A stretch of 64,000 nucleotides of DNA from a virus. The stretch is taken from IMG/VR virus record IMGVR_UViG_3300032770_000005, positions 88,858-152,857 of that record; one strand, written 5' to 3'. The notes below the pieces were generated by a model. It did not search any database, was not told where the DNA came from, and saw nothing but the letters and a program-made list of their open reading frames with translations. Positions 2,067-60,530 of the stretch are shown piece by piece (within the stretch, counting starts at the first letter, position 1; every line of letters starts with the position of its first letter). Position numbers and translations under genes: made by a program.

Positions 2067-2623
2067 CCGGGCGACGAGGCGACCCGTCGTACACGCCGCC
2101 GACCGACGAGGAGCGACGCCTCGGCTACTACCTCGACTGCGTCAGCTGCGGCCGCCCGTGGGCGCTGCGCAGCTGCGTGCCGCACTTGCATCGCTGCCGC
2201 TCCTGCGCTCGCTCGTGGTGGCGCGACTACCGCCAGGCGGCGCGCCAAGGGCTGCCGCGGCCGAGCCTGCTAGGGCAGATCGCGCCGCATCCCTTCGCCT
2301 CGAAGGCGCTGAACCGCACGGTCGATCTGAACGCTCCGGGGCTCCTCGACCTGGTCGAGCAGGACCCGAAGTTCGCGAAGGAGCTGGACGCGTACATCGC
2401 CAGCCTGCGGCACGCCGACAGCAGCAAGCCGCCGCTGCGCGGCGCGGCCCTGAGCCTATCGGGACGGCCGCGTCGCCGCGCCGTGCGCGTGCCGCTCGAT
2501 GAAGACCCTACGCCCGAGCCGCCCATCTCCCGAGCGGCAGCCAAGGAGGTCGAGCGCCTGGTCGACGAGGTGCTCGTCGGCGACGTGATCGATGCCGGAG
2601 CGGTGCCGCGTCGGCGCGCGTGA
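2063..2623 (+). CDS. Hypothetical zinc-binding protein
   Basis: 186 residues; the ATG overlaps the previous stop (ATGA). Residues about 26-50 hold four cysteines and a histidine (CVSCGRPW, then CVPHLHRCRSC), a treble-clef or zinc-ribbon pattern. The rest is charged and helical, with a basic patch GRPRRRAVRV near residue 133 and an acidic C-terminal helix. No enzyme motif is visible. It is the last gene before the first cluster of pseudoknot repeats. Confidence 0.6.
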   Translation: MTGRRGDPSYTPPTDEERRLGYYLDCVSCGRPWALRSCVPHLHRCRSCARSWWRDYRQAARQGLPRPSLLGQIAPHPFASKALNRTVDLNAPGLLDLVEQDPKFAKELDAYIASLRHADSSKPPLRGAALSLSGRPRRRAVRVPLDEDPTPEPPISRAAAKEVERLVDEVLVGDVIDAGAVPRRRA

Positions 2624-2624
2624 G

Positions 2625-2848
2625 AGGCCTGCGCGGGGGCATGGTGCTCGCGACGCGCTCGCGACGAACCACGAGAGCCGGCGACGCGCCCATCCCGAAG
2701 CCAGCGCGGGGGCTTCGTGCCTGCGACTCGTGACGGAAGTTTCTCGTGGCTGACCTGTTGCATTCTGTCGAAAGGCCAGCGCGGAGGCTCTCATGTCCGC
2801 GACATGCAGTTCCACGACTGAGCCAGCGCGAGGGCTTGTGCTCGCGAC
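2625..2848 (+). repeat. Pseudoknot repeat cluster I (4 copies)
   Basis: This otherwise gene-free stretch (2624-2921) holds four copies at 2625-2654, 2698-2727, 2773-2803 and 2820-2848, all in the + sense, downstream of the + operon. In copy 2 the first stem arms are GAAGCC and GGCTTC and the second stem arms are CGCGGG and CCTGCG. In copy 3 the second stem is CGCGGA with TCCGCG. In copy 4 it is CGCGAG with CTCGCG. The base changes are compensatory. Copies 3 and 4 with the 17-nt linker between them recur inverted at about 17383-17463. Confidence 0.85.
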
Positions 2849-2921
2849 GGTGTCACGTTCACTGGCGCTTCTGCGACGCGATGCCCGCTAGCCGACGTCC
2901 GGCGCCCATGCGACGATCGCG

Positions 2922-3335
2922 GTGATGTTGTCCAACGGCAGCAGCTCCTCCTACGGGTCCAACGCGTACAACACCGCGTCCAACGCGCCGTACACGACTG
3001 GCACATGGTCCCGGTTCTACGACAACGGCGGCACGACCTGGTCTCGACAGCCGCCTCGCGTGGCCGACCGCAGGCTGAGCAAGGTCGGCGAGCGCATCCA
3101 CCAGCGCCTCACGGAGATGGCCCGCCAGCTCGACCTGACCATCGACGAAACCGCCGTGCTCATGGAGGCCGAGGTCGCACGTCAGCATCGCGCGCTCCAG
3201 CTCCGCACGCTCGGCGTCGAGTGCCAGAGCACGCAGGCCCGGGCGACCGCTCGCCGACACCAGCGCCCAGCCGCGCCCACGGCCCAGGCACAGGCCGCGC
3301 TCTCCGTCAGGCGGTTCGCGCAGAGGGTGCGCTGA
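2922..3335 (+). CDS. Hypothetical protein with Ser/Asn/Tyr-rich N-terminus
   Basis: 137 residues; GTG at 2922 or ATG at 2925, bounded by an upstream in-frame stop at 2889. The ribosome site is weak. Residues 1-45 are low-complexity (Ser, Asn, Tyr, Thr). Residues about 48-95 form one amphipathic helical region (RLSKVGERIHQRLTEMARQL, then TIDETAVLMEAEVARQH), followed by an Ala/Gln/Arg-rich tail. The stop overlaps the next ATG. No family recognised. Confidence 0.5.
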   Translation: MMLSNGSSSSYGSNAYNTASNAPYTTGTWSRFYDNGGTTWSRQPPRVADRRLSKVGERIHQRLTEMARQLDLTIDETAVLMEAEVARQHRALQLRTLGVECQSTQARATARRHQRPAAPTAQAQAALSVRRFAQRVR

Positions 3336-4276
3336 TGCGCAAGAACCCGCGGCCGCCCCTCGCTCCCGACTTCGACGAGCTGGTGCGCATCTGGTTGCAG
3401 CGCCGCGACGACTTCAAGCTGTGCGCCGAGCTGTCGAACGTCGCGCCGCCACACTTGAGGATCTGGCCCGAGAAGCGCGGCTACGGATGCTTCGCAGAGG
3501 TCAGCCCGACACACAAGCGCGTCGTCATGTACCGGCGCGGCTTCCTCGACCGGCCCACCGACATCGCGGCGATGGCCTTGGTCGCCGAGACGGGGCTGCT
3601 GGACGACTACGAGATCTTCGAGACCGACGAGGTGACCAACGAGCTGGTGCCCGTAGGGCTCACGATGCGCTCGCTGCTCTCTGCGATCCACGAGGTGCAG
3701 GAAGAGAGCATCGTCCGACACGATCCTCGAAGCGATCTGCCCGACGAGCCGCGCACGTTCAAGTACCTCGCGCGGTACAGCCCGCAGGAGATGGAGTGGT
3801 ACCACGCGACGCTCGCCTCCCGCGTGCCTTCAATCTTGAAGCACGGCCTGTTGCCGTCCTCGCTCCAGGAAGGGCGGGTCGAAGGCTGGTCGCCTAGCTG
3901 GAACTTCGGCCTCCAGCCGGCCGTGTACCTCACGGCCTACGAGGACCGAGCCGCGAGGATTGCCGAGACGCTGGCGCTGCGCAACGCGGAGCCCGCGACC
4001 CTGCTGGTCGTCGACGGTGCGGGCCTGATCGACACCAAGCTCCTCACCTACGACGAAGATGCTCTACGCAACGAGTTCTCGTCGTACCCGTACTACGAGC
4101 ACTACGACCAAGCCTTCCCGCAGTGGGTCACGAGCGCCGAGCATCGCGGCACCGAGTCCATCGCCTACCTCGGCCGCATCGGGCCTTCCGCAATCCACCC
4201 GCTCGCCACCGTGCGCCTGGTCGAGCACGATGGCGAGGTCGATCTGGAGTGGGACGATGAGCAAGACCGAGACTGA
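3335..4276 (+). CDS. ADP-ribosyltransferase-fold (KptA/PARP-like) protein
   Basis: 313 residues; TGATG overlap with the previous gene. The central part (about residues 150-205) reads YHATLASRVPSILKHGLLP, then AVYLTAYEDRAARIAETLAL. This is the usual signature of ART-fold proteins such as RNA 2'-phosphotransferase or phage ARTs: H-x-T, then I-L-x-x-G-L-x-P, then a Y-L-T strand followed by a helix with A-x-x-x-A. A conserved catalytic Glu was not pinned down. The N-terminal 140 residues are unassigned. A second protein with the same motif is encoded at 20273-21616. The target (protein, RNA or DNA) is unknown. Confidence 0.55.
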   Translation: MRKNPRPPLAPDFDELVRIWLQRRDDFKLCAELSNVAPPHLRIWPEKRGYGCFAEVSPTHKRVVMYRRGFLDRPTDIAAMALVAETGLLDDYEIFETDEVTNELVPVGLTMRSLLSAIHEVQEESIVRHDPRSDLPDEPRTFKYLARYSPQEMEWYHATLASRVPSILKHGLLPSSLQEGRVEGWSPSWNFGLQPAVYLTAYEDRAARIAETLALRNAEPATLLVVDGAGLIDTKLLTYDEDALRNEFSSYPYYEHYDQAFPQWVTSAEHRGTESIAYLGRIGPSAIHPLATVRLVEHDGEVDLEWDDEQDRD

Positions 4277-5597
4277 GGACGCGCAGCTGCAACTCGTGGG
4301 CGATGCCCTCCTCCGGTTCGCGGCGGAGTTCCCTGGTCGCGTCTTCACGAACGCGTACACATGGGTCTGGGGCGCCGGCAGATACGTCTCCATCCATGGC
4401 GCGCTCGTGGGCAGCGCACGCAAGGTCGCCGCCTACTTCGGTCACATGGCGACCATGAACGAGGAGCACGAGTTCGGCATGAGCGGCCAGGTGCTCGATC
4501 ACATCGCTCGCCGCGTGTTCGGCGCCGACGCCGACATCTTCCGGTACGAGCGCCGTGTGCACCTAGCAGAGTTCCTCCAGCGCCTGGCGAACCTGATGCC
4601 GGAGGAGGCGACGCTGACCTTCATCCCCGACGGCGGCTACCCGTGGCCCGTCGATCGGTACTGGAACGCACGGCTTGAGCGGTTCGTGCGGCCCAAGGAG
4701 CCCGCGGGGCTGATCCACGTGCCGTCGCGCGAAAACCCGACCAAGACCGAGCTGGGGCTCGATCCGTGCACGGTGTTCGAGGCAGATCGCGATACGCCGG
4801 TCTCTCCGTACGACCCGGTGATGGGCAGCCTTGGCGGCGATCCTCTCATGGCCGCGCACTCGATGGACCTCCACGAAGGGCCCACCATGGCCAACGCACC
4901 GAAGATTCGGCAATGCGGTGGTCTGCTGTTCCCGTCGCTCTCGGTCGGTCCGGTCCCGGCCTCGAACTTCGGCCACGCATGCCTCGTGGCTCGCCTCAGC
5001 CTGGTGCTCGACGGCCTCAAGCCCTACCGCAAGCGCGGGACTGAAGAGCAGGTCTGGATCTACCCGACCGACGTGTGGACTGGCACCGTGACGCAGTTCA
5101 TGACCTCGATGGCCAGCGACCTGTTCGACGAGCTGCACGGTCACGCCGACTACGTCTACGGGCATGGCCTGACGGTGCTGGGGATCCCGGCGGTCGAGTA
5201 CGGCGGTCCTTCCGGCGGTGCGGAGGCGTTCGACTCGACGAGCCAGCTCAAGCGGACCCTCAAGAAGCGCATGGTGCGATGGATGCGGGTCTGCAACGAG
5301 CGCGAGTTCGAGGAACTGGCGCACGAACTCGGCGGCACGGGGGCGTACTACGCCTACTGCGAGGCGAAGGGGCGAACGGTCGTCTCGCTGAGCGAGTTCC
5401 CGTACCTGATCGTACCGGACTGGATGCGCGACAAGGCGGAGCACTGGGCGCAAGCGGCGGGGTTCGAGGGGCAGATCGTAGCGCCGCAGTGGCCGTACAC
5501 GCTCGACAGGGGCGGCGGAAGCTGGGACATGTGGCAGTGGGCTCTGAAGGTGAGCGAGACCGTCGCCGGTCTACGCCCGGTCGTGGAGGTGCGCTGA
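4257..5597 (+). CDS. Hypothetical 446-residue protein
   Basis: Starts inside the previous gene (20-base overlap) and ends in a TGATG overlap with the PcfJ-like gene, so all three are co-translated. There are no membrane segments. It contains many aromatic stretches (TNAYTWVWGAGRYVSIHGAL, IYPTDVWTGTVTQFMTSMA, YVYGHGLTVLGIPAVEYGG) that suggest a folded mixed alpha/beta protein rather than a spacer ORF. No family recognised; its position suggests work alongside its ART-like and PcfJ-like neighbours. Confidence 0.6.
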   Translation: MSKTETEDAQLQLVGDALLRFAAEFPGRVFTNAYTWVWGAGRYVSIHGALVGSARKVAAYFGHMATMNEEHEFGMSGQVLDHIARRVFGADADIFRYERRVHLAEFLQRLANLMPEEATLTFIPDGGYPWPVDRYWNARLERFVRPKEPAGLIHVPSRENPTKTELGLDPCTVFEADRDTPVSPYDPVMGSLGGDPLMAAHSMDLHEGPTMANAPKIRQCGGLLFPSLSVGPVPASNFGHACLVARLSLVLDGLKPYRKRGTEEQVWIYPTDVWTGTVTQFMTSMASDLFDELHGHADYVYGHGLTVLGIPAVEYGGPSGGAEAFDSTSQLKRTLKKRMVRWMRVCNEREFEELAHELGGTGAYYAYCEAKGRTVVSLSEFPYLIVPDWMRDKAEHWAQAAGFEGQIVAPQWPYTLDRGGGSWDMWQWALKVSETVAGLRPVVEVR

Positions 5598-7033
5598 TGT
5601 TGCTGCAAGACGCTACGTCGGAACGGGAGGTCGAGGAAGTGCTGGCCGGCGCGCGTGGCGACGAGGAAGCCGCCGAGCTGCGGACCGACATCGAGACCGA
5701 GCTGGACTACGCCATGCGGCGGTTCGACGAGCACTTCTACAAGTACGTCGAGCCATCTGAGCCGACGGAGCTGCGGGACTTCGTGCAAGACAACGATGGA
5801 TTCATCGACGAGCTAATCAGCGACAGCGCGCAGACCACGTACGACCTATCGATCGTCCCGCGTGAGGACGTGGTCACCGCGGTGCGCTGGGAGGTGACGT
5901 CGCGACGGTCCTCATACAAGCATAGGTTTGGGATCTTCGAGTTGGGCGAGCCGCGAGACGTCGACGCATCGGGCTTCAGCTACGACATGCCCACCGAAGC
6001 GAACGTCGTCTTTCCCGACAGGCTCCTGCCGACCAACTACGAGTTCGTGCCACGCGAGATGGCGACGGAGTTCTGGAAGGGCATTGCGCATGACCACGAC
6101 ATCGAGTGGTACGGCGACACGGACCGGTTGGGTGACAACCAGGGCTCGATGCCGGGCGAGCCGCTCCGTATCGGCGTCGCGGAAGATCGCTTCGAGGAGT
6201 GGTGCCGCGACCTGATCGCCGAGCACGCGAACAAGATCGCAGAGCAGCATCCGGACCAGCTCATCGAGATGTTCTGGACTCGGCTCCGTCAATCCGATGT
6301 CCGGATGGCAGCCGAGTTCAAGGCGATGCAGCCGCGGCGGGAGGACGTGCTCGACCTGGCCGTGCAGTGGATCAGCGGCAACCACGACGATGTCGCCGAG
6401 GAGATCGCGCAGTACCTCGACTCGGCCAAGGAGCGCGGGGAGGCAGAGAAAGCGGAGTACGAGCCCGTCGACTCGCTCCTGACCGGCGAGCCCATCGTGC
6501 TCAACGACGACGTGCTGCGGCAGCTGGGCGTCACGAGCGGCGTGTTCTGGGAGGAGCGCCCGTGGCACCTCGTGAGGCTCGAAGCGCGTGACCTAGGTCG
6601 CGAGGGCCGGCAGATGCGGCACTGCGTCGGCGACAAGGGCATGGGCTACATCCGTGCGCTCAACAACGGCGAGATCGAAGTCTGGTCTCTGCGCTCCCGC
6701 GACGACAAGCCGCGGTTCACGCTCCAGGTCGACGCGTCGTTCTTCGCGAAGGGCGCGACGCCAGAGACGCGCGGCAAGGCGATCCAACAGGTCAAGGGCA
6801 AGGCGAACCGGGTGCCGGGCTATGCCGACGCGTACGGCCGCTCGGGGAACGTGAAGTTCCCGGAGGAGATCGTCATCTGGAGCTGGATCTTCGAGCAGCT
6901 CATGGTCGATCCGCTCGTCGTCGAAGACTTCAAGGGCTACAAGGCGCTTCCCTCGCGTGCTACGCCGCTCGCGTCGAACATGACTGGCCAGCAGTGCGTG
7001 GGCTTCGATCTGCCGTACCGACCGCTGCGATGA
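5597..7033 (+). CDS. PcfJ-like domain protein
   Basis: 478 residues; start preceded by GGAGG and overlapping the previous stop. Residues about 335-385 contain GRQMRHCVGDKGMGYI, then IEVWSLRSRDDKPRFTLQVD. This matches the PcfJ core: an H-C-V-G motif followed by a strand with S-L-R and a T-L-x-V strand. PcfJ-like proteins occur on plasmids, phages and integrative elements; their biochemical role is not established. The first 300 residues are acidic and unassigned. It is the last gene of the left rightward operon. Confidence 0.65.
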   Translation: MLLQDATSEREVEEVLAGARGDEEAAELRTDIETELDYAMRRFDEHFYKYVEPSEPTELRDFVQDNDGFIDELISDSAQTTYDLSIVPREDVVTAVRWEVTSRRSSYKHRFGIFELGEPRDVDASGFSYDMPTEANVVFPDRLLPTNYEFVPREMATEFWKGIAHDHDIEWYGDTDRLGDNQGSMPGEPLRIGVAEDRFEEWCRDLIAEHANKIAEQHPDQLIEMFWTRLRQSDVRMAAEFKAMQPRREDVLDLAVQWISGNHDDVAEEIAQYLDSAKERGEAEKAEYEPVDSLLTGEPIVLNDDVLRQLGVTSGVFWEERPWHLVRLEARDLGREGRQMRHCVGDKGMGYIRALNNGEIEVWSLRSRDDKPRFTLQVDASFFAKGATPETRGKAIQQVKGKANRVPGYADAYGRSGNVKFPEEIVIWSWIFEQLMVDPLVVEDFKGYKALPSRATPLASNMTGQQCVGFDLPYRPLR

Positions 7034-7072
7034 CGGCCGTTGGCATGTGAGCAGTGCAGGTGCTATCGCAGC

Positions 7073-7375
7073 ATGCGCCAGCGCGAGGGCCTGGTGCTCG
7101 CGACCAGGCCTGAAGAGCCCTGCGGTCACGAAGCCTGCGCAGGGGTCTCATGCCTGCGACGAGGAGTGCCATGCCATCCATCATCTGCGGGACCTGCTTC
7201 TGGTTGCAGGGCCAGCGCGGGGGTCTCATACCTGCAACGAGAGCATCGAACGATGGAACGCTCGGAGGCGTGAACGTCCGAGGCCGGCGCGAGGGCCTGG
7301 TGCCTGCGACCTGTTCTTCCGCTGGTGGAGAACCGCATCGTCGCGAGCACCAAGCCCCCGCGCCGGCCTTTCGAC
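7073..7375 (+). repeat. Pseudoknot repeat cluster II between convergent operons
   Basis: The gene-free stretch 7034-7396 holds four + sense copies (7073-7104, 7130-7160, about 7201-7238, 7280-7310) and one - sense copy (7340-7375). The first four lie downstream of the + operon; the last lies downstream of the - operon. Repeat orientation therefore switches with transcription direction. Second-stem arms vary in step: CGCGAG with CTCGCG, CGCAGG with CCTGCG. In the copy at 7201 a longer outer pairing GTTGCAGG with CCTGCAAC is also possible. Confidence 0.85.
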
Positions 7376-8182: not shown

Positions 8183-8443
8183 CTAGTGCCCAACGGCAAG
8201 CAACCAGCCCCATCCGGCCACGTAGAGTCTCGTGCCCGAGTAGAGCACGACCTCGTACCACTCGTAGTCGAGGTGGCCTTGAGGATGTGGGCCACAATCC
8301 GCACGCTCGATGCGACCGAGCTGTCCCGCGTACGGACCGCAAGCAACACGCACCACATCGCCTGTCCGAAACGATGCCCCGGTATCCGCCGGTCCGAGCA
8401 GCTCTCCTGGATCGTACAGATCGAACATCGTCGTAGTGATCAT
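8183..8443 (-). CDS. Small SH3/KOW-like protein
   Basis: 86 residues. The middle reads GDVVRVACGPYAGQLGRIER, the common pattern of KOW/SH3-like barrels that bind RNA, DNA or protein, followed by YEVVLYSGTRLYVAGWGW. The neighbour at 8448-8780 has a similar barrel-like start. The ribosome site is weak. No specific function can be given. Confidence 0.6.
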   Translation of the reverse strand: MITTTMFDLYDPGELLGPADTGASFRTGDVVRVACGPYAGQLGRIERADCGPHPQGHLDYEWYEVVLYSGTRLYVAGWGWLLAVGH

Positions 8444-8447
8444 GCCG

Positions 8448-8780
8448 TCACCGCTCGCAGACTTGACGATCTAGAGCCGCACCTACAGCCGCTCGAAGCG
8501 CACGACATGCCTCTTCCAAGGCGCTGGTGTTGGCGTCGCGGTCGTCATCGCCGGTCGTAAACCAAGCCATGGCGGCTCGAACGACCGCGCGCTCCGCATC
8601 GGCCACGCTCAGCAACGGAATGTGCTCGACCCAGCTGACGTGATGAACACGGTAGAGCCTTCCCAGGGCAAGACCTCGCCACTCGATCTCGACCTCGTCT
8701 CCCCGCACGGCCACGACCGTGCCCGTGTAGGACTTCTGCCCCACGTCGCGAACGTCGTCACCGACCTTGAACTGTGTCAT
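8448..8780 (-). CDS. Small SH3-like protein with helical C-terminus
   Basis: 110 residues; ATG preceded by AAGGGG. The N-terminal 40 residues (FKVGDDVRDVGQKSYTGTVV, then VRGDEVEIEWRG) look like an SH3-type barrel of the kind seen in small phage proteins. The remainder is helical (DAERAVVRAAMAWF, then ALEEACRALRAAVG). Similar in type to the gene immediately downstream. No family name assigned. Confidence 0.55.
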   Translation of the reverse strand: MTQFKVGDDVRDVGQKSYTGTVVAVRGDEVEIEWRGLALGRLYRVHHVSWVEHIPLLSVADAERAVVRAAMAWFTTGDDDRDANTSALEEACRALRAAVGAALDRQVCER

Positions 8781-8793
8781 CTGCCGGCCCCTT

Positions 8794-9060
8794 CTACTTG
8801 GTGCCGCGCTGGATGGCGACGAGCGCAGCCGCCTTGATGCTCTTGAGCTGCTCGCGCTGCATGAGGCGCACGAGCGCGGCGTAGGTCGCGGCATCGACCT
8901 GCACGCCGATGGTCTTCACGGTACCGACGGCGGGCACCTGGCCCTTCGGCGTCGATGGCTGACGAGCGGGAGCGTGGGTCTCTTCCATGGGCGACTCCTT
9001 GAGCGCGGCACGCTCGGCTTGCAGTTGGGCGAGGTGACGTTGGATCTGTTCGAGCAGCAT
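8794..9060 (-). CDS. Small putative ribbon-helix-helix protein
   Basis: 88 residues. The N-terminus is a short coiled coil (LEQIQRHLAQLQAERAALKE), then a Pro-rich linker, then IGVQVDAATYAALVRLMQ and LKSIKAAALVAIQRG. The last part has the strand-helix-helix spacing of CopG-like DNA-binding domains. This is a motif-level reading only. It sits directly before the gene at 8448 in the leftward operon. Confidence 0.4.
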   Translation of the reverse strand: MLLEQIQRHLAQLQAERAALKESPMEETHAPARQPSTPKGQVPAVGTVKTIGVQVDAATYAALVRLMQREQLKSIKAAALVAIQRGTK

Positions 9061-9062
9061 GG

Positions 9063-9353
9063 TCAGACAGGCGTCCGGCGAGTCACAGCAGCTTCACCAG
9101 CCTCTGCCGGAAGCTCCGTGGCGAGTGTCACCACCTGCCAGTCTTCCGCCAGATAGTCTTCGGGCTTGAAGGCGCTGCGACACGTCACAGAGACCCATGC
9201 CCACTTGGTCCATGGGCTCCGCCCCTGCGAGCGAAAGAAGAACCCGCGCTCGTCGTAGCCGAACGCGTCGAGGCGCTTGAACGTGTTGTCCATCCCCGAA
9301 CGGTTCACCAGCTTGCCCGCGAGCATCTCTCGGACTGCTTCGACAAAGGTCAT
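9063..9353 (-). CDS. DUF2829 / Tad2-like small protein
   Basis: 96 residues. The start MTFVEAVREMLAGKLVNRSG and the later YLAEDWQVV match the framework of the DUF2829 family: F-x-E-A-x-x-x-M-x-x-G-K-x-x-x-R near the start and L-x-A-x-D-W-x-V-V near the end. Some members (Tad2) sequester the cyclic-nucleotide signal of Thoeris defence; others have unknown roles. The central part diverges from the usual core, so the match is partial. The start overlaps the exonuclease stop (ATGA). Confidence 0.45.
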   Translation of the reverse strand: MTFVEAVREMLAGKLVNRSGMDNTFKRLDAFGYDERGFFFRSQGRSPWTKWAWVSVTCRSAFKPEDYLAEDWQVVTLATELPAEAGEAAVTRRTPV

Positions 9354-10192
9354 GGACCTGCCCCCATGCGCACGATGCCTGGCGCAGGCGCTCGGAAATC
9401 GCCGATGGGCACCTCGCAGTGCAGAGGCAGCGCGAGCTGGCGCGACAAGTGCGCGCTCTCCCGCCCCGCATCGAGACGCTGCCACAGCTTTTGACCGAAG
9501 ACCTCGCTCACCGCGGTCTCACCGCGCAGATAGATGTCGTCGAACGAATCGAAGTGCTGGAGCAGCTTGACCGCGGTGTGGTGGCCGATGCCTGGCACGC
9601 CCGGAATGCCGTCGCTGCTGTCGCCGACCAGCGCAAGGTAGTCGACGACGTGATGAGCCGATACGCCCAGGCGCTCACGGCAGACCCGGTTGTTGACCAG
9701 GCGCTTCATGGCCGGGTCATAGACGCCGCGCACGCCGTGCACGCCGATCCACTGCCAGAGGTCCTGGTCGATGCTCACGATGAGCTTCGGCACGTCGCGC
9801 AGGTCGTGGTGGCACACGTAGGCGCCGATGATGTCGTCCGCCTCGTACCCGTCGATGCGCACGACGGACACGTCGAGGTCCGCCAGCGTCTCGTAGAACC
9901 GCGGCGCCTGACGCGCGAAGACCGGCAGGTGAGCCTTGCGCCCCGCCTTGTAGCCGTCCCAGACCTCGCACCGCTTCAGCGGCGCGAACGAGTCGCCGAC
10001 GACCACCATGCGCGTGGTGCGGAGGTCATCCATCGTCCGCGCCAGCATCACCCGAGCGTGCTCGATGAAGCGCGTGTTGTCAGGATCGACCGTCGGCGCT
10101 CGCGCGCCGTAGCAGGCGTACATCGCACGATGCAAGAACGAAGCGACGTCGACCAGATGCAGTTCGTCGGGCACGTGTAGCTCGTCGGACAC
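9350..10192 (-). CDS. 5'-3' exonuclease (FEN/PIN-like)
   Basis: 280 residues from a GTG with GGAG five bases upstream. Motifs in order: LVDVASFLHRAMYA (first metal Asp), VVVGDSFAPLKR, EVWDGYKAGRKAHLP (helical arch), RIDGYEADDIIGAYV (acidic cluster), VSIDQDLWQW (second acidic site), then YLALVGDSSDGIPGVPGIGHH, the H3TH DNA-binding motif. This is the complete set expected of T4 RNase H/T5-type flap exonucleases, which remove RNA primers and 5' flaps during replication. Length is typical. No polymerase domain is attached and no DNA polymerase gene lies in the window. Confidence 0.9.
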   Translation of the reverse strand: MSDELHVPDELHLVDVASFLHRAMYACYGARAPTVDPDNTRFIEHARVMLARTMDDLRTTRMVVVGDSFAPLKRCEVWDGYKAGRKAHLPVFARQAPRFYETLADLDVSVVRIDGYEADDIIGAYVCHHDLRDVPKLIVSIDQDLWQWIGVHGVRGVYDPAMKRLVNNRVCRERLGVSAHHVVDYLALVGDSSDGIPGVPGIGHHTAVKLLQHFDSFDDIYLRGETAVSEVFGQKLWQRLDAGRESAHLSRQLALPLHCEVPIGDFRAPAPGIVRMGAGP

Positions 10193-10200
10193 GGAGTCTC

Positions 10201-11070
10201 CTACTGCCCGACCGGAGCCGGCGGAAAGAGCGCCGGCCAGCGTGCACGTGCGACCTCCTGCCACTTCCGTGCGAGGCGCTGGAACTCCCCATCCGCCGCC
10301 GGCGAGCACCGCTCCGCGAACAGCTTGTTGAGCGCGATGGGATTGGTCGTCCACAGGAACGACGTGCACGCCTGCATCGGCAGAAGGCCCGCCGCGGCCT
10401 CGTAGATGCGCTTGCGCTCGATGCCCACGGGAGATCGACCATGGGCCTCGAAGAACGCCGTCGTCCTGCCCGTGATGAAGCGGCGGTACGCGTCGTAGAA
10501 GGCCTGACAGTGCTTCTCGTACGGGTCGAGCAGGTCGTGCTCGACGTAGTAGGGCGGCACCGCGAAGTGGCCCGGATGGAACGTGTAGCGGGTGCTCTCC
10601 TGACTCGGCGAGCCCTCCTCGGTGCGGTCCGCGCCCACGTAGTGGCGGATCAGCTCGTGACTGACCCGCCGGCTCACGCCCGCGATGAAGAAGGTCATCT
10701 TCGCGTGGTAGGCCGTGCTCGCATGAGGCAGGGACCCCGCCTCGGCGGGAAAGAGCATGTGCCGCACGTACTCGACGTTCGACTTGCGGCCAGCCCGCAG
10801 ACCGTAGCTGTGGTAACAGCTGCGGCCCGCCAGCTCGACGAGCAGTTCGTTGTCGGTCAGCGCCCGGGCGGCTTCCTTCCCTCCGTGCGGGAACAGCGCC
10901 ATCGCGCGGTCTTCCGCGTCGGCGGGCAGGTCCGTAGGCACGCACTCGGGCCGGTAGTCGCGAACCCAGTCGAGCAGCTGGTTCATGCCCTCGGTGTCGA
11001 GGGCCATGGACGCCACGACGAGCACCGTCGGCTCGGTGATGAGCCGTACGGCGCCCTCCTTCTCCGCCAC
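10201..11070 (-). CDS. thyX: Flavin-dependent thymidylate synthase
   Basis: 289 residues, GTG start, lying between the DNA-binding gene and the exonuclease. FFIAGVSRRVSHELIRHY and SQESTRY match the ThyX core, where R-H-R-x7-S-x-R-Y contacts FAD and dUMP. Here the third residue of the R-H-R triplet is Tyr, and the segment before SQES is about five residues longer than usual. The C-terminal ALNKLFAERCS with EFQRLARKW matches the usual helical end. The enzyme would make dTMP from dUMP with methylene-tetrahydrofolate and reduced flavin, feeding viral DNA synthesis. Confidence 0.85.
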   Translation of the reverse strand: MAEKEGAVRLITEPTVLVVASMALDTEGMNQLLDWVRDYRPECVPTDLPADAEDRAMALFPHGGKEAARALTDNELLVELAGRSCYHSYGLRAGRKSNVEYVRHMLFPAEAGSLPHASTAYHAKMTFFIAGVSRRVSHELIRHYVGADRTEEGSPSQESTRYTFHPGHFAVPPYYVEHDLLDPYEKHCQAFYDAYRRFITGRTTAFFEAHGRSPVGIERKRIYEAAAGLLPMQACTSFLWTTNPIALNKLFAERCSPAADGEFQRLARKWQEVARARWPALFPPAPVGQ

Positions 11071-11473: not shown

Positions 11474-11587
11474 GATGTGTCTCTCCTTGACGCGCCCCGG
11501 CGCGGAAGGTGTGACTGTATGGCTGCTTGACTCAGAACGCAAGGCTCAAGAGGCGAAAAACACGCCAACAGGTCGACGACGATGTCA

Positions 11588-11730
11588 CGGTCTTTCAAGG
11601 CGCCGCGCAGCCTCTCCCGCCATCGGGCACTCGTCGCAGGCACCAAGCCCACGCGCTGGCCTTGGCGAACAACACGACCCCTGATCTTCGGTCACCTCGG
11701 CGCGGTCTTCCAAGGCGCCGCACGGCCTCT
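11588..11730 (-). repeat. Short duplicated segment flanking one pseudoknot repeat
   Basis: Two near-identical 27-base segments (about 11588-11614 and 11704-11730) share CAAGGCGCCGC and GCCTCT. They bracket one - sense copy of the pseudoknot repeat at 11633-11670, whose second stem has a mismatch. Reversed, the flanking segments also contain AGGC with GCCT and CGCGG-type arms, so they may be divergent relatives of the same repeat. The 260-base gap holds no convincing gene. Confidence 0.5.
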
Positions 11731-13124: not shown

Positions 13125-13712
13125 TCACCACTTCGAGAACGACTCGAAGGGCTGATCGCGGTGCACGTACAGCGGATGCCGAGGGGCGCCACTGTGCACG
13201 CGCCCAAGGCAGAGCACGGGCACGCTGCCGGCTACCAAGCGACGGTGCACGTCGCGCTCGTGCTCGTGGCCGAAGCTCGGCCCGCTCGCGCCCCACGCGC
13301 AGACGATCGCGTGCACAGACGGGTCGTGCAGCACGAGGGTGAACTGCGCGTCGTTCTTGGGGCCGACGACGCGTGAGATCCAGTCGATTCGATCGAGCTG
13401 GCTCCGCTCGACGGTGTGGTGCGGCTCGGGCGGCGGCGAGCGCAGGGCGGTCGGCGATGGCGAGCGCAGGGCGTAGAGGTTCAGGACGATCAGCCCGCCG
13501 CAGCCCTCGCGCTTGGAGAAGCCGATGCAGCGACGGATCGTAGGATCGTCGGTCTCCGCGTCCGCCGTGCTCGGGTTCAGCATCACCCACACGAGCACCT
13601 TCGCGGCAGGCGCCCACATACGCCAGAGGCGATAGCGGTACTCGCCGTCGATGATGGCGCCGGAGAGCGGCGGCGGCACGGTGGGCGCTGGCTCGGTGAC
13701 ATCGAGGCCCAT
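13125..13712 (-). CDS. DUF1643 family protein
   Basis: 195 residues. The sequence follows the DUF1643 pattern closely: YRLWRMWAPAAKVLVWVMLN, PSTADAETDDPTIRRCIGFS, GGLIVLNLYALRSPSP, VCAWGASGP and finally PRHPLYVHRDQPF. The family is widespread in bacteria and phages and its function is unknown. Length is typical. The start lies two bases from the upstream stop, so translation is coupled. Confidence 0.8.
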   Translation of the reverse strand: MGLDVTEPAPTVPPPLSGAIIDGEYRYRLWRMWAPAAKVLVWVMLNPSTADAETDDPTIRRCIGFSKREGCGGLIVLNLYALRSPSPTALRSPPPEPHHTVERSQLDRIDWISRVVGPKNDAQFTLVLHDPSVHAIVCAWGASGPSFGHEHERDVHRRLVAGSVPVLCLGRVHSGAPRHPLYVHRDQPFESFSKW

Positions 13713-14885: not shown

Positions 14886-14908
14886 GGGCCACGTCACGCG
14901 TTTTTGCG

Positions 14909-15165
14909 CGAGCCAGCGCGAGGGCTTGGTGCTCGCGACAACGATCAGGTCGCACAAAAGCCCTCGCCGGGGCTTCGTGCCGGCGACGTCGAGGAGGTTG
15001 GCGCGTTGATCGCGAAGGGCCGCTCAGTGCGAGGCCAGCGCGGGGGCCGTTGTGCCTGCGACGATTCCCTCGGCGCGCTCTCGGCGTCAAGCCAACGCAG
15101 GGGCCTGGTGCCTGCGACGCGCGGCGTCTCCGCGAGGGCCTGTGCGAGGGCTTTGTGCTCGCGAC
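14909..15165 (+). repeat. Pseudoknot repeat cluster III (5 copies)
   Basis: The gene-free stretch 14843-15224 holds the leftward promoter and five + sense repeat copies at 14909-14939, 14956-14987, 15031-15062, 15088-15118 and 15134-15165. The copy at 14956 is informative: its second stem is CGCCGG with CCGGCG, a third base-pair solution at the variable positions. The copy at 15134 uses TGCGAG with CTCGCG, a G-U pair. The copies precede the + gene at 15225. Confidence 0.85.
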
Positions 15166-15224: not shown

Positions 15225-15509
15225 ATGCTGATCGTCCACTATGGAGCCCCCAGCCCGGACACCGAATACCCGCGCATCCCGCCCATTCTGACCGACCCGC
15301 GGCCAAACACCGTGACGCCGGGACCAGCGACGCCGGAGCCCGTGGCGCCGAAGCCGGACCAGATGCTCGCGGCGCTGACGAAGCGGCGCGTGCGGGTCGC
15401 GGTGAGGATCGACGAGGCCGGCCGCGTGCACGTGCGGGTCGACGGTCCATTCGGTCTGGCCGCCGACGTCTCGGGCGAGAAGTCGATCACGATCGAGACC
15501 GAGGTCTGA
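15225..15509 (+). CDS. Hypothetical 94-residue protein
   Basis: ATG preceded by GGGAG. The N-terminal half is Pro-rich (YPRIPPILTDPRPNTVTPGP). The C-terminal half is a small beta segment (RVRVAVRIDEAGRVHVRVDG, then ADVSGEKSITIETEV). No family recognised. Flanked on both sides by pseudoknot repeats in the same orientation. Confidence 0.5.
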   Translation: MLIVHYGAPSPDTEYPRIPPILTDPRPNTVTPGPATPEPVAPKPDQMLAALTKRRVRVAVRIDEAGRVHVRVDGPFGLAADVSGEKSITIETEV

Positions 15510-15512
15510 GCC

Positions 15513-15695
15513 GTGGCCCGCGCAGGGGCCTCGTGCCTGCGACCATACCGAGCACCGGCACTCGTGCAGCCGCAGGGTCGGTTGCGAAGCCTGCGCAGGG
15601 GCCAGGTGCCTGCGACAAGTTGTACGACACGTACTTCCCGCGCGAAGTCGGGACGTGTTGTTGCGAAGCCGGCGCGAGGGCTTCGTGCTCGCGAC
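15513..15695 (+). repeat. Pseudoknot repeat cluster IV (3 copies)
   Basis: Three + sense copies at 15513-15543, 15585-15616 and 15665-15695, starting four bases after the stop of the gene at 15225. The copy at 15665 is the best single example: both stems pair perfectly, GAAGCC with GGCTTC and CGCGAG with CTCGCG. The first loop is GG and the last loop is GTG. Confidence 0.85.
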
Positions 15696-16966: not shown

Positions 16967-18352
16967 GTCGCGGGCATTCGGCCCCCACGCTGGCCTGACG
17001 GCGACGGCGATGACCCACTGCTGCGCCATGTCGCAGGCACGATGCCCCCACGCTGGCCCTGCAACGCGCACAACGCGCAGTACAAGCCGATGGCGCTCGG
17101 CGTGGCTCGGCGTGTCGCGAGCACCAAGCCCCCGCGCTGGCCTCGCCTGCATGACGATCTGCACCGAGTGCTTCTGCGTCCATCCGTCGCGGGCACTCGG
17201 CCCCCGCGCTGGCCTCGTAACAAGGGCTCTAGCTGACCGGTCAGCAGGACGACGCGCAGTCGCAGGCACGATGCCCCCGCGCTGGCTCTTCGAGACGCCG
17301 TCTCGGCCTTCCGGTCGCAGGCACCAGGCCCCTGCGCAGGCCTCGCAACAACTACACGCGAACCGAGCGCCTTCGCATATGCGTCGCGAGCACAAGCCCT
17401 CGCGCTGGCTCAGTCGTGGAACTGCATGTCGCGGACACCAGAGCCTCCGCGCAGGCTCGATCGTGGTCGCTCGGCTTGAGCGCGAGCCGGGCCTTCTCGC
17501 TCACTTCGCGAGCACCAAGCCCCCGCGCTGGCTTCGCGACTACGTGGATGCGGCCGCTTCCCCTTGGTCCAGCGCCAGGTGCAGGCACGAGGCCCCTGCG
17601 CAGGCCTCGCGACGTCCTCGTCATGAACACCAATCTCGCGGACACGCAGTCGCAGGCACACGGCCCCCGCGCTGGCCTCGCGACGCATATGATCGGCGCT
17701 GGTACGCGTGCGGCGACCTCCAGTCGCAGGCACTCGGCCCCCGCGCTGGCCTCGCGACGCTCCGGCGCGCCGCGTGAGCATCACGACGTCGCGCTTCATG
17801 TCGCGAGCACTCGGCCCCCGCGCTGGCCTCGCGACCGGCAGACCCGGGCGATGGTAGTGCTGCACGATGACGTCGCAGGCACACGGCCCCCGCGCTGGCC
17901 CCGCGACCAATGAACGGTGCCTTGTGGGCGGCCACGGGTCCCAGAGTCGCAGGCACACGGCCCCCGCGCTGGCCTCGCGACCCGCACAGCAGCGCGTTGA
18001 ACGCGCCGCCCGCGAGAAAGTCGCAGGCACACGGCCCCCGCGCTGGCCTCGCGACGGCACTGCTCCGGCGCATGGGCTTCTGCGAGGAGCGCGGTCGCAG
18101 GCACACGGCCCCCGCGCTGGCCTCGCGACCGCGTCGCTGGCCACCCGACACGCATGTATGTGCCTCCCGGTCGCAGGCACACGGCCCCCGCGCTGGCCTC
18201 GCGACGCACGTCGTGCACGGTCGGCGTTGTCGTAGTTCTCCTGTCGCAGGCACCAGGCCCCCGCGCCGGCCTCGCGACTAGAGGATCTGCGTGCGAGGAA
18301 CGTTGTCGAAGAAGGAGTCGCAGGCACACGGCCCCCGCGCTGGCCTCGCGAC
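16967..18352 (-). repeat. Array of about 20 pseudoknot repeats
   Basis: Twenty units of about 36 bases begin at 16967, 17030, 17114, 17186, 17259, 17314, 17383, 17428, 17505, 17579, 17649, 17723, 17800, 17872, 17946, 18020, 18094, 18170, 18243 and 18317. The last ten have a regular 72-77 base period with unique linkers of 36-41 bases. Read on the - strand each unit has first-stem arms of GGCC type and second-stem arms such as CGCGGG with CCTGCG. The pairing works on the - strand through G-U pairs but gives A-C mismatches on the + strand. The left ten units are irregular and variable. The array lies downstream of a leftward gene, whose C-terminus reads into the last unit. It resembles a CRISPR array in spacing, but repeat variation, solitary copies elsewhere and the absence of cas genes argue otherwise. 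Confidence 0.85.
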
Positions 18353-57178: not shown

Positions 57179-57655
57179 TTAGAGGACGAACTCGTCACGC
57201 TTCTGGTTCTGCTCCGCGGTCGCAGCGCGCTGACGCCGCTCGAACGCCAAGATCCTCTCCAGCGAGACGATGTCGACCGGCTCTCGCGCCGTACAGGCGA
57301 AGATCGCCGCCTCGCCGATCTCCATCATCTCCATCGCGGGGGACAAGCGTCGGCAGAAGCGGCGGATCTGCCGAGGCTGCTCCTCGACGCCCTTCGTGTA
57401 GCCCTCGGCCTCGGTGAGGATCGCAGTGTAGTGCGAGCACTGGGGCCGCGTGTCGGTCGCGATGCACACCAGGTTGTCCTCGTCGAGCCCCAGTGCCGCG
57501 GGCGGCGGCGATCCGCCTCCGATCATCACGCCGCCATCAGGCGCACGGACGACCGGCACGCCCCCGAGTTCGACGTAGTCAGACGAGCGCACCGCGAGCG
57601 GCTTCTGCCCCCGCGTACCTCCGCCCCCAACTTCGGCGCCAGCGTCGTCCGACAT
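57179..57655 (-). CDS. Hypothetical 158-residue protein with four cysteines
   Basis: First gene of the 35-kb leftward block. Gly-rich start, then YVELGGVPVVRAPDGGVMIG, and four spaced cysteines (NLVCIATDTRPQCSHYTAIL; RRFCRRLSP; AIFACTAREPVDIVSLERIL). The cysteine and histidine spacing fits a metal or disulfide site. No family recognised. Confidence 0.5.
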   Translation of the reverse strand: MSDDAGAEVGGGGTRGQKPLAVRSSDYVELGGVPVVRAPDGGVMIGGGSPPPAALGLDEDNLVCIATDTRPQCSHYTAILTEAEGYTKGVEEQPRQIRRFCRRLSPAMEMMEIGEAAIFACTAREPVDIVSLERILAFERRQRAATAEQNQKRDEFVL

Positions 57656-57689
57656 CGAGGCGACCCTACGCGCTGCGCATGCCACGCGG

Positions 57690-57766
57690 CAAGCGCCGGG
57701 GAGCTTATCACTGCTGCTTTTGCAGCAAAAAGCTGGCGCCGCATAACAGCAGAACGAGGTCCAGAC
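57690..57766. promoter_or_regulatory. Candidate divergent promoter region
   Basis: The A/T-richest short stretch of the neighbourhood (around TTTTGCAGCAAAAAG at 57718) lies between the leftward structural block and the rightward genes. A + strand pair TTGCAG and CATAAC with a 16-base spacer, and a - strand pair CTTTTT and GATA-type with about 17, can be drawn. Positions are suggestive only. Confidence 0.35.
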
Positions 57767-58080
57767 ATGAACTTAGTGGGCCTCCAGTCCGGCTCCGGCC
57801 CGGTCGTCCCGGATGTTCACTCGGCAGCCGACGAGAGATCGCGCCCCATCTCGCCATGCCACCGCCGCGACGCAGCCGGCCGCTGGGGGCTGCGCGGCAG
57901 CCGCGCGGTAGACGCCGGCCGCGACGCGGAGGCGTGCGGCTCGCTCGGGCCGGCCGGCCGAGACGAGCGGAGGCGCGGAGACTCGGCGAGCGGCGAACCG
58001 GCCGGGCCGTCGCCACGGTCCCGGCGCCTCCCGGGAGAGAGGAGAGAGCTGCCGCGGTGTGAGAATGCTCACGCTTAGCC

Positions 58081-58109
58081 TTGCATTCGCCGCGCGGCGG
58101 TTGTATGCT
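58081..58109 (+). promoter_or_regulatory. Rightward sigma70-type promoter
   Basis: TTGCAT (58081-58086), exactly 17 bases, TATGCT (58104-58109). It stands out in a very GC-rich surround and points into the rightward gene cluster from 58452. Transcription would start near 58116. Confidence 0.65.
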
Positions 58110-58111
58110 GT

Positions 58112-58451
58112 GTCCGGTCAACCTAAGGACCTCTCCCGAGGTGCCCTGGGGTGACTGCGGCTCACCGTGACCCTTCGGGGCTGGTCGGCCGGTGTCGTGG
58201 AGCGGATCCCGTGACCAGCCGTCGGCACGCTAGCATGCCGCCAGCTGTAGGAACACCCTCCCCGTCACCGACCGGCTGCCCCTGGCAATAGCCGGGGTCT
58301 CCTGCCTGCGTCCGCGGGCATGGGCAGGGACGGTGAGAGGCTAAGAGGCACGGGCGTCCACGCCTGCGTGCTCGGACTTGGTCCCCCGAGGAACCATGGC
58401 CGAGCACGGAGTCGTGGAACCGCGGATGCGAGGCGTCCGGGAGGTGTGCCC
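58112..58451 (+). ncRNA. Long structured leader or small RNA
   Basis: About 335 bases between the promoter and the first ATG contain no convincing gene but several inverted repeats: GGTGA with TCACC near 58155-58170, CTGGTC with GACCAG (about 58172-58219), CCTGCC with GGCAGG (about 58302-58330), and CGAGCAC-type arms near 58375-58410. It could be an independent structured RNA or a leader controlling the operon. Family not recognised. Confidence 0.4.
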
Positions 58452-58892
58452 ATGAAGATCGAGATCGAGGAGACGCCGGAGACGATCGCGGCGGACGAGC
58501 GTCTGGCCGAGACGCGTCGGGCGTGGGCTGCTCTGAGCGCCGACGAGCGCCGCAACCGCATCGCGGAAGCGGCGGCACTCGGACGCCTCGACGCGATCAA
58601 GGCGTACCGCGCTACGAGCGGCGCCGAGCTGGGCGAGGCGGTGCGCACGATCGACGCCGCGATCGCGGCGGCGGCGGCGGCGGCGCCCCTCACGCTCGGA
58701 CAGCGCTTGCGGCTGCCAGCCGGGCACAAGGTGGGCATGGGACGCCTACGTCACGCGGTCGAGGCGACGATCTCCCGCGTCGACACCGACGATCACGGTC
58801 GCCCGTTCTACGCCGTGCGCTACATGTCGACGAAGGAGACGGAGCGCTCGACGTGGCTCACGCATGTGGAGGCGATCGCCTATGCGCGCTGA
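58452..58892 (+). CDS. Hypothetical 146-residue protein
   Basis: ATG preceded by GGGAGG. Helical first half (ETIAADERLAETRRAWAALS; ELGEAVRTIDAAIAAAAAAA), then a small beta segment (GMGRLRHAVEATISRVDTDD; GRPFYAVRYMSTKETERSTW). First gene after the strong promoter, so likely early-expressed. No family recognised. Confidence 0.55.
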   Translation: MKIEIEETPETIAADERLAETRRAWAALSADERRNRIAEAAALGRLDAIKAYRATSGAELGEAVRTIDAAIAAAAAAAPLTLGQRLRLPAGHKVGMGRLRHAVEATISRVDTDDHGRPFYAVRYMSTKETERSTWLTHVEAIAYAR

Positions 58893-59109
58893 GGGCGGCG
58901 GCAGGGTGGCTCGCCCCGCCCGGCGCATGCTCTATGTCGCCTCGCACACGCGTGCAGGCGTCCACGCTGTCGAGCGGTGTGCGACTCACGCGCAAGCGGA
59001 AGAGGTGTACGCGCGCCTCGACCCTCAGAGCTACGCCAAGCGCGCGATGCTGTACGCGACATCGACGCGTGAGGCGCTGCGCATCGTGGCGCGCGCGTGG
59101 GGGCCCTGA
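58882..59109 (+). CDS. Hypothetical 75-residue protein
   Basis: Overlaps the previous gene; GGAGG before the ATG. MLYVASHTRAGVHAVERCAT and SYAKRAMLYATSTREALRIV form a repeated strand-helix pattern. Ends in a TGATG-type junction with the next gene. No family recognised. Confidence 0.5.
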   Translation: MRAEGGGRVARPARRMLYVASHTRAGVHAVERCATHAQAEEVYARLDPQSYAKRAMLYATSTREALRIVARAWGP

Positions 59110-59321
59110 TGAGCAAGAGCAGCAAGAGCCTGCATCACGCCGTCGGCAAGACCGTCGCGTGCATCGACGTCGAGCGGGTGCACCTCACGACGTACGACGC
59201 GCGGCGCACTCCCTCGATCACGGCGATCGTGTTCACCGACGGCTCGCGCATCGCGTTCGGTGCGATGGAAGTCGAGCACGGCGACCCGGTTCCCACCGCG
59301 ACGTACTATCCGGAGCGATGA
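59109..59321 (+). CDS. Hypothetical 70-residue protein
   Basis: Compact beta-type sequence: GKTVACIDVERVHLTTYDAR, SITAIVFTDGSRIAFGAMEV. Start/stop overlaps with both neighbours. Small domains of this type are frequent in phage early regions. No family recognised. Confidence 0.5.
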   Translation: MSKSSKSLHHAVGKTVACIDVERVHLTTYDARRTPSITAIVFTDGSRIAFGAMEVEHGDPVPTATYYPER

Positions 59322-59620
59322 CCATGGACGCGAAGCCGAAGCAGGCTCGGACAAGGTGCGGCCCGATCGAGGGCATCCTGCGGCGCGAGCCGCTCCGGCT
59401 CGCCATGAGCCAGGCGCCCCAGATTGGGCGCCTCTACGTCTGCCGTAACACGGCGCCGCCAGGATGGGCGGGCGACACCGTGCGCGTGCTCGGCGTGTGC
59501 GTCGAGAAGAAGACCGCGCGCGTCGAGGAGATGGACGGGCGCTACAAGACCGAGGGCGAACCTCTGTACACCACCGTCGTGCACTGGGACGACCTGATCC
59601 TCGATCCGAGGGCGTCGTGA
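59318..59620 (+). CDS. Hypothetical 100-residue protein
   Basis: GGAG precedes the ATG. IGRLYVCRNTAPPGWAGDTV, RVLGVCVEKKTARVEEMDGR, TTVVHWDDLILDP: an SH3-like small beta domain. Overlaps both neighbours. No family recognised. Confidence 0.5.
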   Translation: MTMDAKPKQARTRCGPIEGILRREPLRLAMSQAPQIGRLYVCRNTAPPGWAGDTVRVLGVCVEKKTARVEEMDGRYKTEGEPLYTTVVHWDDLILDPRAS

Positions 59621-60033
59621 ACCGACGCAGCCCGCTTGAGAGCATCCTCCGCCGCGCCTACACGGGCGAGTCGATCGAGATGACCGAGCGGCGGCGGCGG
59701 GCGATCAGGCGCATGGTCTCGCTCGGCTGGCTCACGAGTCGAGGGGCCGGTGCCTACGGCATCACGCATGCTGGCCGGCTCGCGCACGAGCGTGGCGAGG
59801 CGCTCGCCGCGAAGCAGCGGCATGCGTGCTCGATCGAGCACGTGCGGACGGGCATCGTGGCCGGCACGGGGACGACGGCCGATGCGGCCTGGCTGAGCGC
59901 CGCGTCGCGCGGCGTCACCGGCGGCGCGGACTGGCAGATCGTGCCTTGGCGCCCCGAGCATGCTCATCGCCTGATGCAACGACCGTGCGCCGAGCATGGG
60001 CGCGTGCCCTGCTCGACGTGCCTGGACACCTAG
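59617..60033 (+). CDS. Winged-helix-like small protein
   Basis: 138 residues, GTG start overlapping the previous stop. Residues about 22-62 (MTERRRRAIRRMVSLGWLTS, GAGAYGITHAGRLAHERGEA) have the helix-turn-helix plus wing layout seen in MarR/PadR-type and phage repressor-type proteins. The C-terminal part has paired cysteines (RPCAEHGRVPCSTCLDT), a possible zinc site. A transcription regulator is plausible. Confidence 0.5.
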   Translation: MNRRSPLESILRRAYTGESIEMTERRRRAIRRMVSLGWLTSRGAGAYGITHAGRLAHERGEALAAKQRHACSIEHVRTGIVAGTGTTADAAWLSAASRGVTGGADWQIVPWRPEHAHRLMQRPCAEHGRVPCSTCLDT

Positions 60034-60119
60034 TCGTTCGTTGGTGCCCTTCGAGGCCCTGGCACGCCGGACCTCGTAGGGTGACGATGACCGCCACCAC
60101 CACCACCACGGAGATCCAC

Positions 60120-60530
60120 ATGACCGAGACCACCGAGACCACGCGCAAGACCATCACCATCACCATGAGCGAGCGGCGTCCGCTCCGGATCGTGGACGAC
60201 GAATGGCCCGTGATCGCCAGCGCCCGCGACTGGAATGGCGAGCACGAATTCCAGGCAAACCGCATCGACACGGTGCGTGTGCGCGAGCACGCCGATGGGC
60301 GACGCATCGTCACTGCGACGCATCTCGCTGGCGGCGGCGGCATGCGACGCGAGGAGCGCGAGATCCGCGCCGGATTCCTCGTCCCCGCGTCGAACGAGGA
60401 TGCGGCCGACGGCACGAAGATGCCCGACGAGGACGAGACGATTCGCGCGATCCGTCGTGCGGCGGGCGTGATCGGTCGCGACGACCTCGCCGCCGAGTGC
60501 ATCGGCGATCTTCCCGCCGAGGAGATCTGA
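60120..60530 (+). CDS. Conserved hypothetical protein (EWPVIASA family)
   Basis: 136 residues from an ATG with GGAG six bases upstream; an earlier in-frame ATG at 60087 lies in a Thr-rich stretch. MSERRPLRIVDDEWPVIASA, RDWNGEHEFQANRIDTVRVR, EHADGRRIVTATHLAGG follow a pattern met in many small phage and bacterial proteins of unknown function. A helical C-terminus (TIRAIRRAAGVIGRDDLAAE) follows. Confidence 0.55.
   Translation: MTETTETTRKTITITMSERRPLRIVDDEWPVIASARDWNGEHEFQANRIDTVRVREHADGRRIVTATHLAGGGGMRREEREIRAGFLVPASNEDAADGTKMPDEDETIRAIRRAAGVIGRDDLAAECIGDLPAEEI

Follow-up and report, generated by a model that had tools for sequence, protein, structure and literature searches.

Probable Cas12m guide-RNA arrays in a viral genome: scattered, diverged in sequence and conserved in shape

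Repeat units in the window and across the record

The window analyzed here is a stretch of 64,000 nucleotides (nt) comprising bases 88858-152857 of a 152,857-bp IMG/VR virus record (IMGVR_UViG_3300032770_000005, labeled G000 and also L009). On its minus strand, at 16967 to 18352, it carries an array of 20 repeat units, which very probably belongs to a set of phage-encoded guide-RNA arrays of Cas12m, an effector of clustered regularly interspaced short palindromic repeats (CRISPR) systems, whose units are scattered and diverged in sequence and have kept their shape. Eighteen of the units are ungapped, and two more with a short indel were read from the sequence (starts in Table 1), in agreement with the roughly 20 units of about 36 bases that had been noticed by a model from the letters of the window (the original prediction). 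The right part of the array consists of near-identical repeats spaced at 71-77 bp, matching the regular right half described there; the left part is degenerate. Every linker is unique, and the consensus of the array, read leftward, is GTCGCGAGGCCAGCGCGGGGGCCGTGTGCCTGCGAC. A pattern match recovered 16 units in the window compared to 0.00 expected from 100 shuffles. Comparison of the repeat with Rfam returned nothing above the gathering score.

We then scanned the whole record, obtaining 79 matches with a position-weight scan and 81, two of them of a second repeat type, with a structure-aware scan. A shuffled record scanned with the sequence model gave zero matches. When copies with indels are included, the record holds at least 81 main-type units spread over 11 intergenic clusters; the array of the original prediction is thus one cluster among 11. 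All scanned units lie clear of called genes, the calls being those of a purpose-made simple caller based on codon usage. A same-strand gene precedes 74 of the 81 scanned units, a figure that looks stronger than warranted because the units are clustered; per cluster, with the second-type cluster counted, orientation is that of the preceding gene in 10 of 12. The record units comprise 61 distinct 36-mers; repeats are near-identical in the first five units at record 59234 and in the window array's right half, but not overall.

Pseudoknot fold and match to the Cas12m scaffold

Judged from covariation, the leftward H-type pseudoknot proposed in the original prediction is real. With the repeat numbered 1-36, the first stem (S1) pairs positions 6-11 with 20-25, and the second (S2) pairs 14-19 with 29-34. 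Because the structure-aware scan is biased toward paired hits, the pairing statistics rest on units found by sequence only and on contiguous arrays. Among the 61 distinct copies of the record found by sequence only, S2 was paired in 98.4% of cells and S1 in 79.5%, the three inner pairs of S1 being nearly invariant and the outer pairs looser. S2 showed both-sided changes at four pairs in these copies, and their covariation score was 0.237 compared to 0.175 when shuffled, with none of 500 shuffles scoring as high. G-U cells outnumbered A-C cells (87 vs. 16), which for the window array points to an RNA on the leftward strand, as had been predicted. A competing outer hairpin, GTCGC/GCGAC, showed zero covariation and was ruled out as the functional fold.

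The fold was also found in other viruses. In an independent virus, G014, 28 units follow one another without a break at 45-60 bp spacing, and their 28 scaffolds all differ; 96.8% of cells pair (95.8% for S2), and both-sided change occurs at seven of nine pairs. Covariation of the two stems extends to a set of 16 viral repeat families (99.3% paired; score 0.724 vs. 0.173), in which G34-A35-C36 is invariant. Of the 81 record units, 79 have G at position 13, and A35 and C36 are each present in 78.

A Cas12m protein, Cas12m-A, is encoded in the record beyond the window, and the cleanest array of the record adjoins its gene (Table 1). Cas12m-A matched the Cas12u1 (= Cas12m) profile of PADLOC across its length (E 6.5e-100) and, among PDB structures, a solved Cas12m (E 1.5e-67) and Cas12m2 (3e-27), whereas TnpB models matched it at only about 1e-9 or weaker. 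The CxxC...CxxC of the TNB zinc finger is present, and the alignment places D313, E469 and D555 at the RuvC positions, an intact DED site where Cas12m2 has H, D and D. The solved Cas12m2 complex shows disorder in the 5' seven repeat bases, pseudoknot pairing of -22..-17 with -8..-3, a G-23:A-2 pair, base-specific recognition of C-1, and 17 bp of guide pairing (PMC10442227); GoCas12m also uses about 30 nt of the repeat with a pseudoknot (PMC11013384). In the record units, S2 lies at -23..-18 with -8..-3, G13 and A35 occupy the places of the Cas12m2 G-23:A-2 pair, and C36 occupies that of C-1. We conclude that the units are almost certainly Cas12m CRISPR RNA (crRNA) units and that their pseudoknot is the known Cas12m crRNA scaffold.

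The features of type V-M (formerly V-U1) are found together here: a Cas12m with RuvC and TNB zinc finger, an adjacent array with unique spacers, and a stem plus pseudoknot with a G:A pair and terminal C followed by the guide. Adaptation genes were not found; a Cas1 probe that matched 9 of 14 control genomes found no Cas1 in the record. The effector family and the pseudoknot scaffold are those of Mycolicibacterium mucogenicum Cas12m2 (PMC10442227) and Gordonia otitidis Cas12m (PMC11013384), and in type V-M, too, the array adjoins cas12m without cas1 and a single crRNA of about 50 nt is expected. Unlike type V-M, with its one array, the record holds its units in 11 places, most of them differing in sequence, and has two Cas12m paralogues and two repeat types in one virus; relatives have compact 45-50-nt units.

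The original prediction had taken the array for a decoy or sponge RNA of a new family, to be refuted by a cas operon with the identical repeat in the same genome, and had pointed to mimics of ToxI, the antitoxin RNA of type III toxin-antitoxin systems. We dropped both readings because of the linkage to cas12m: the record carries the gene with a near-identical repeat adjoining it, and the unit at record 59891, in this cas12m-linked array, equals the window majority unit at all 28 core bases. Tandem H-type pseudoknots of about 36 nt are indeed known from ToxI, but the probability that this is a ToxI array or ToxI mimic is negligible, given the exact Cas12m scaffold geometry, linkers that are unique and of regular guide length, a unique guide after each unit, and the linkage of the scaffold to cas12m in at least six independent records. 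ToxN (PF13958) was not found in the record, a weak negative, as the same probe matched no control genome. The suggestion of a processed small-RNA array holds, by analogy only.

A profile search of the record also revealed a second Cas12m (E 1.5e-98), 45% identical to Cas12m-A. Its PHROGs label is "transposase." A second repeat type, here called B-type (GAGGCTGCGCGGCGCCTTGAAGACCGCGAC), lies directly after its gene and twice further on, and differs from the main type in stem and loop (GGC/GCC, TTGAAG), which suggests that the two Cas12m proteins may use separate scaffolds.

The two effector genes, each followed by its own repeat type, also bear on the idea that the units are an RNA anti-CRISPR that mimics the crRNAs of a host V-M system and ties up its Cas12m. 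Solitary viral repeat units are known inhibitors, and Racr single repeat units (PMC11656645) are likewise virus-encoded CRISPR-repeat RNAs; moreover, two records, L028 and L044, hold one or two units with Cas12m undetected there. Unlike Racr, however, the virus studied here has its own effector genes, at least 81 units, and arrays with unique guides of regular length, and we regard a Racr-like role as highly improbable.

A decaying relic is another way to account for the divergence: a once-canonical V-M array would have dispersed, its diverged units being inactive and only the cas12m-adjacent array still working. Units are degenerate at one array end and where they stand singly, and repeat bases 1-8 (5') are lost in many. 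Neutral decay would nevertheless break pairs, but compensatory change has kept S2 paired at the frequencies given above in both G000 and G014 despite the divergence. G13, A35 and C36 stay fixed, and the 28 consecutive units of G014 are all different yet tightly spaced. We consider a relic very unlikely.

Table 1. Units, arrays and genes of the record. Positions are those of the window unless preceded by "record."
Feature	Position	Strand	Remarks
crRNA-type array, 20 units	16967..18352	-	36-nt repeat, leftward reading; spacers mostly 35-41 nt; ungapped starts 16967, 17030, 17114, 17186, 17259, 17314, 17505, 17578, 17649, 17723, 17800, 17872, 17946, 18020, 18094, 18170, 18243, 18317; with short indel, 17383 and 17428
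cas12m-A	record 57349-59214		621 amino acids; beyond the window
Array adjoining cas12m-A	record 59234-60206		14 units, first five repeats identical; starts 20 bp after the cas12m-A stop
Second cas12m	record 8790-10550		586 amino acids
Two main-type units	2619..2727 (2619-2654, 2692-2727)	+	Sequence-model scan
Four main-type units	7069..7310 (starts 7069, 7125, 7203, 7275)	+	Directly 3' of + strand gene
Single main-type unit	7340..7375	-	Opposite strand to 7069..7310; 3' of - strand gene
B-type unit	11584..11614	-	Repeat type of second Cas12m
Main-type unit, flanked by two B-type units	11633..11668	-	Sequence scan
B-type unit, diverged	11699..11729	-	Repeat type of second Cas12m
Degenerate cluster	14904..15165	+	Units 14904, 14952, 15030-15062 (1-nt insertion), 15083, 15130
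Three main-type units	15508..15695 (starts 15508, 15581, 15660)	+	First begins at 3' end of + strand gene
Gene with weak PcfJ-like domain	5597-7033	+	Below cut-off
5'-3' exonuclease gene	9350-10192	-	
DUF1643 gene	13125-13712	-	

Relatives with the same scaffold

Relatives were collected by two routes. Patterns built from the scaffold led to more viral contigs, and among those with clear units, Cas12m is encoded in G002, G004, G012, G019 and the single lineage G007/G013/G014. G001 (74.6 kb) belongs to a larger contig (172 kb) from Actinomadura sp. K4S16 (NZ_BDDE01000028.1; G023:C28; L079-L087), which may be a phage, a plasmid or an island and has 66 units and an HDD-type Cas12m gene ending just before the main array. 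This Cas12m has a large insertion ahead of its RuvC part. The second route started from a Cas12m zinc-finger/RuvC protein motif and yielded 28 additional viral loci, all of them Cas12m by tblastn. Arrays with this pseudoknot topology were seen at about half of these loci, most of them canonical with a spacing of 70-76 bp, and because this search began from the protein, the result is an independent test of the association of the pseudoknot with Cas12m. A single-protein search of IMG/VR with P0001 gave no match.

Two layouts were observed, a canonical one of a 36-nt repeat plus a spacer of about 35 nt, and a compact one with units of 45-50 nt. The modal spacing of the compact layout is 48, corresponding to a 28-31-nt scaffold plus a guide of about 17 nt, and equals the scaffold plus the 17-bp heteroduplex length of Cas12m2; it occurs in G014, G023 and parts of G002 and G012. 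In several records with such units, almost all repeats are different and yet remain paired. G000 and L132 hold near-identical and degenerate units together, as if caught in between. In a Cas12m tree, in which many forks are weakly supported, viruses with diversified arrays did not form one clade.

In L132 (IMGVR_UViG_3300036791_001299), the 34-unit Cas12m array at 2293-5312 has identical repeats adjoining cas12m and a degenerate tail containing one unit of opposite orientation. The start of one of its guides occurs twice, at 4053 and 4198. Units beside cas12m in L124 (IMGVR_UViG_3300018432_000013, 8292-10306) are irregularly spaced at 72-428 bp, and the scan may have missed intervening units or the array may be dispersed. 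The Cas12m-type scaffolds of L028 (5025-5052, -) and L044 (1252-1279 and 1593-1620, +), in records where Cas12m was not detected, are candidate solitary repeat RNAs (anti-CRISPR-like), or fragments.

Guides, proposed function and relation to known systems

Tested Cas12m orthologues with DED, HDD or NDD sites bind DNA dependent on a protospacer-adjacent motif (PAM), leave double-stranded DNA uncut, process their own pre-crRNA, and, once bound, can form a roadblock for transcription or replication. Since these orthologues bind without cutting, we suggest by analogy that the virus silences foreign DNA during infection, a function we somewhat favor. The window array would be transcribed leftward as a precursor RNA, which Cas12m-A would cut upstream of each scaffold, leaving a crRNA with about 30 nt of scaffold followed by 17-20 nt of guide. 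The guide would direct tight binding of matching DNA beside a PAM, and the bound Cas12m, like the tested proteins, would block transcription or replication without cutting. Competing mobile elements are the likely aim, host genes being less likely. In this virus and several relatives, the units are scattered over intergenic sites, for the most part 3' of a gene on the same strand, and their sequences have drifted within the limits set by pairing, which is how separate guide-RNA genes would behave.

We searched for targets of the guides in several collections. There was no match in the record itself or in six related records, and self-targeting (autoregulation) was rejected, the best matches being no better than those of shuffled guides. 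A phage collection gave nothing convincing, matches among 150 relatives looked like chance (the exact 17-mers checked lay mostly in unrelated sequences, and a shared PAM was absent), and translated-spacer patterns run against IMG/VR found no targets. The lack of targets says little, because 17 nt is too little sequence for placing a guide in a large collection.

The same crRNA machinery could instead serve host takeover, with guides whose silencing is directed at host chromosomal genes instead of rival elements. A motif combining a ribosome site with a start codon was present in 13 of 232 guides, mostly of diversified arrays; shuffling gave 2.8 (none of 1000 shuffles reached the observed count), and 1.3% of genomic 20-mers contain the motif. 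This motif, however, was first spotted by eye within the same guide data, and its enrichment did not recur among 101 spacers from other viral Cas12m arrays, where two were seen and 1.0-1.6 expected; the start-codon enrichment is therefore unproven. In addition, 53 guides of the Actinomadura element match the resident genome only at the arrays themselves. Host takeover appears unlikely to us.

Several points weigh against reading the units as Cas12m guide-RNA arrays. The analysis shows an array with its RNA fold, an effector gene and a scaffold match, but transcription, processing, binding and targets are inferred. Protospacers were found for zero guides. The window array lies 46 kb away from cas12m-A, and its vicinity showed no sigma-70-like promoter. 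Many units are degenerate, and the nested-only fold of the majority repeat, from a program that cannot draw pseudoknots, prefers the outer hairpin.

Cas12m, its pseudoknot crRNA and its occurrence in viruses are already known. In a survey of landfill viruses (PMC12607003), 24 Cas12m-grouped proteins lie near viral CRISPR arrays, found by a repeat finder with a minimum spacer of 25. Those viruses resemble ours in having Cas12m beside viral arrays without adaptation genes; the sections consulted do not mention diversified or compact arrays, and pipelines that, like this one, require spacers of at least 25 nt are likely to miss compact ones. TIGR-Tas systems (PMC12045711) also have compact virus-borne arrays with short guides, but a TIGR unit has two guides, and its box C/D motifs are bound by Nop-domain proteins, in contrast to the one guide per unit and Cas12 effector seen here. 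Our search of the literature outside subscription papers found no account of dispersed multi-locus arrays, of strong scaffold diversification constrained by pairing, or of compact 45-50-nt units.

A bolder and still doubtful proposal is that the guide units of some viral Cas12m systems no longer grow by spacer addition between identical repeats but form a dispersed library, in which each unit evolves independently as a small-RNA gene. Such a library might have arisen by compensatory drift, with units shrunk to a scaffold and a 17-nt guide, expression by read-through from genes upstream and paralogue-specific scaffolds, and might act as a programmable viral silencing network. Guide arrays of a CRISPR effector can diversify, apparently in more than one Cas12m lineage, until repeat-based finders should fail, and standard CRISPR finders probably miss these diversified, dispersed arrays. 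The structural signature, a 28-nt pseudoknot with near-fixed G13 and a GAC end, can find them directly, and the approximately 180 diverged Cas12m scaffolds are a natural set for testing which bases matter. The record also prompts one to ask which targets a virus would silence by means of two DNA-binding Cas12m proteins and about 80 guides.

As for the other window genes listed in Table 1, the PcfJ-like, exonuclease and DUF1643 matches come from longer open frames that cover these genes.
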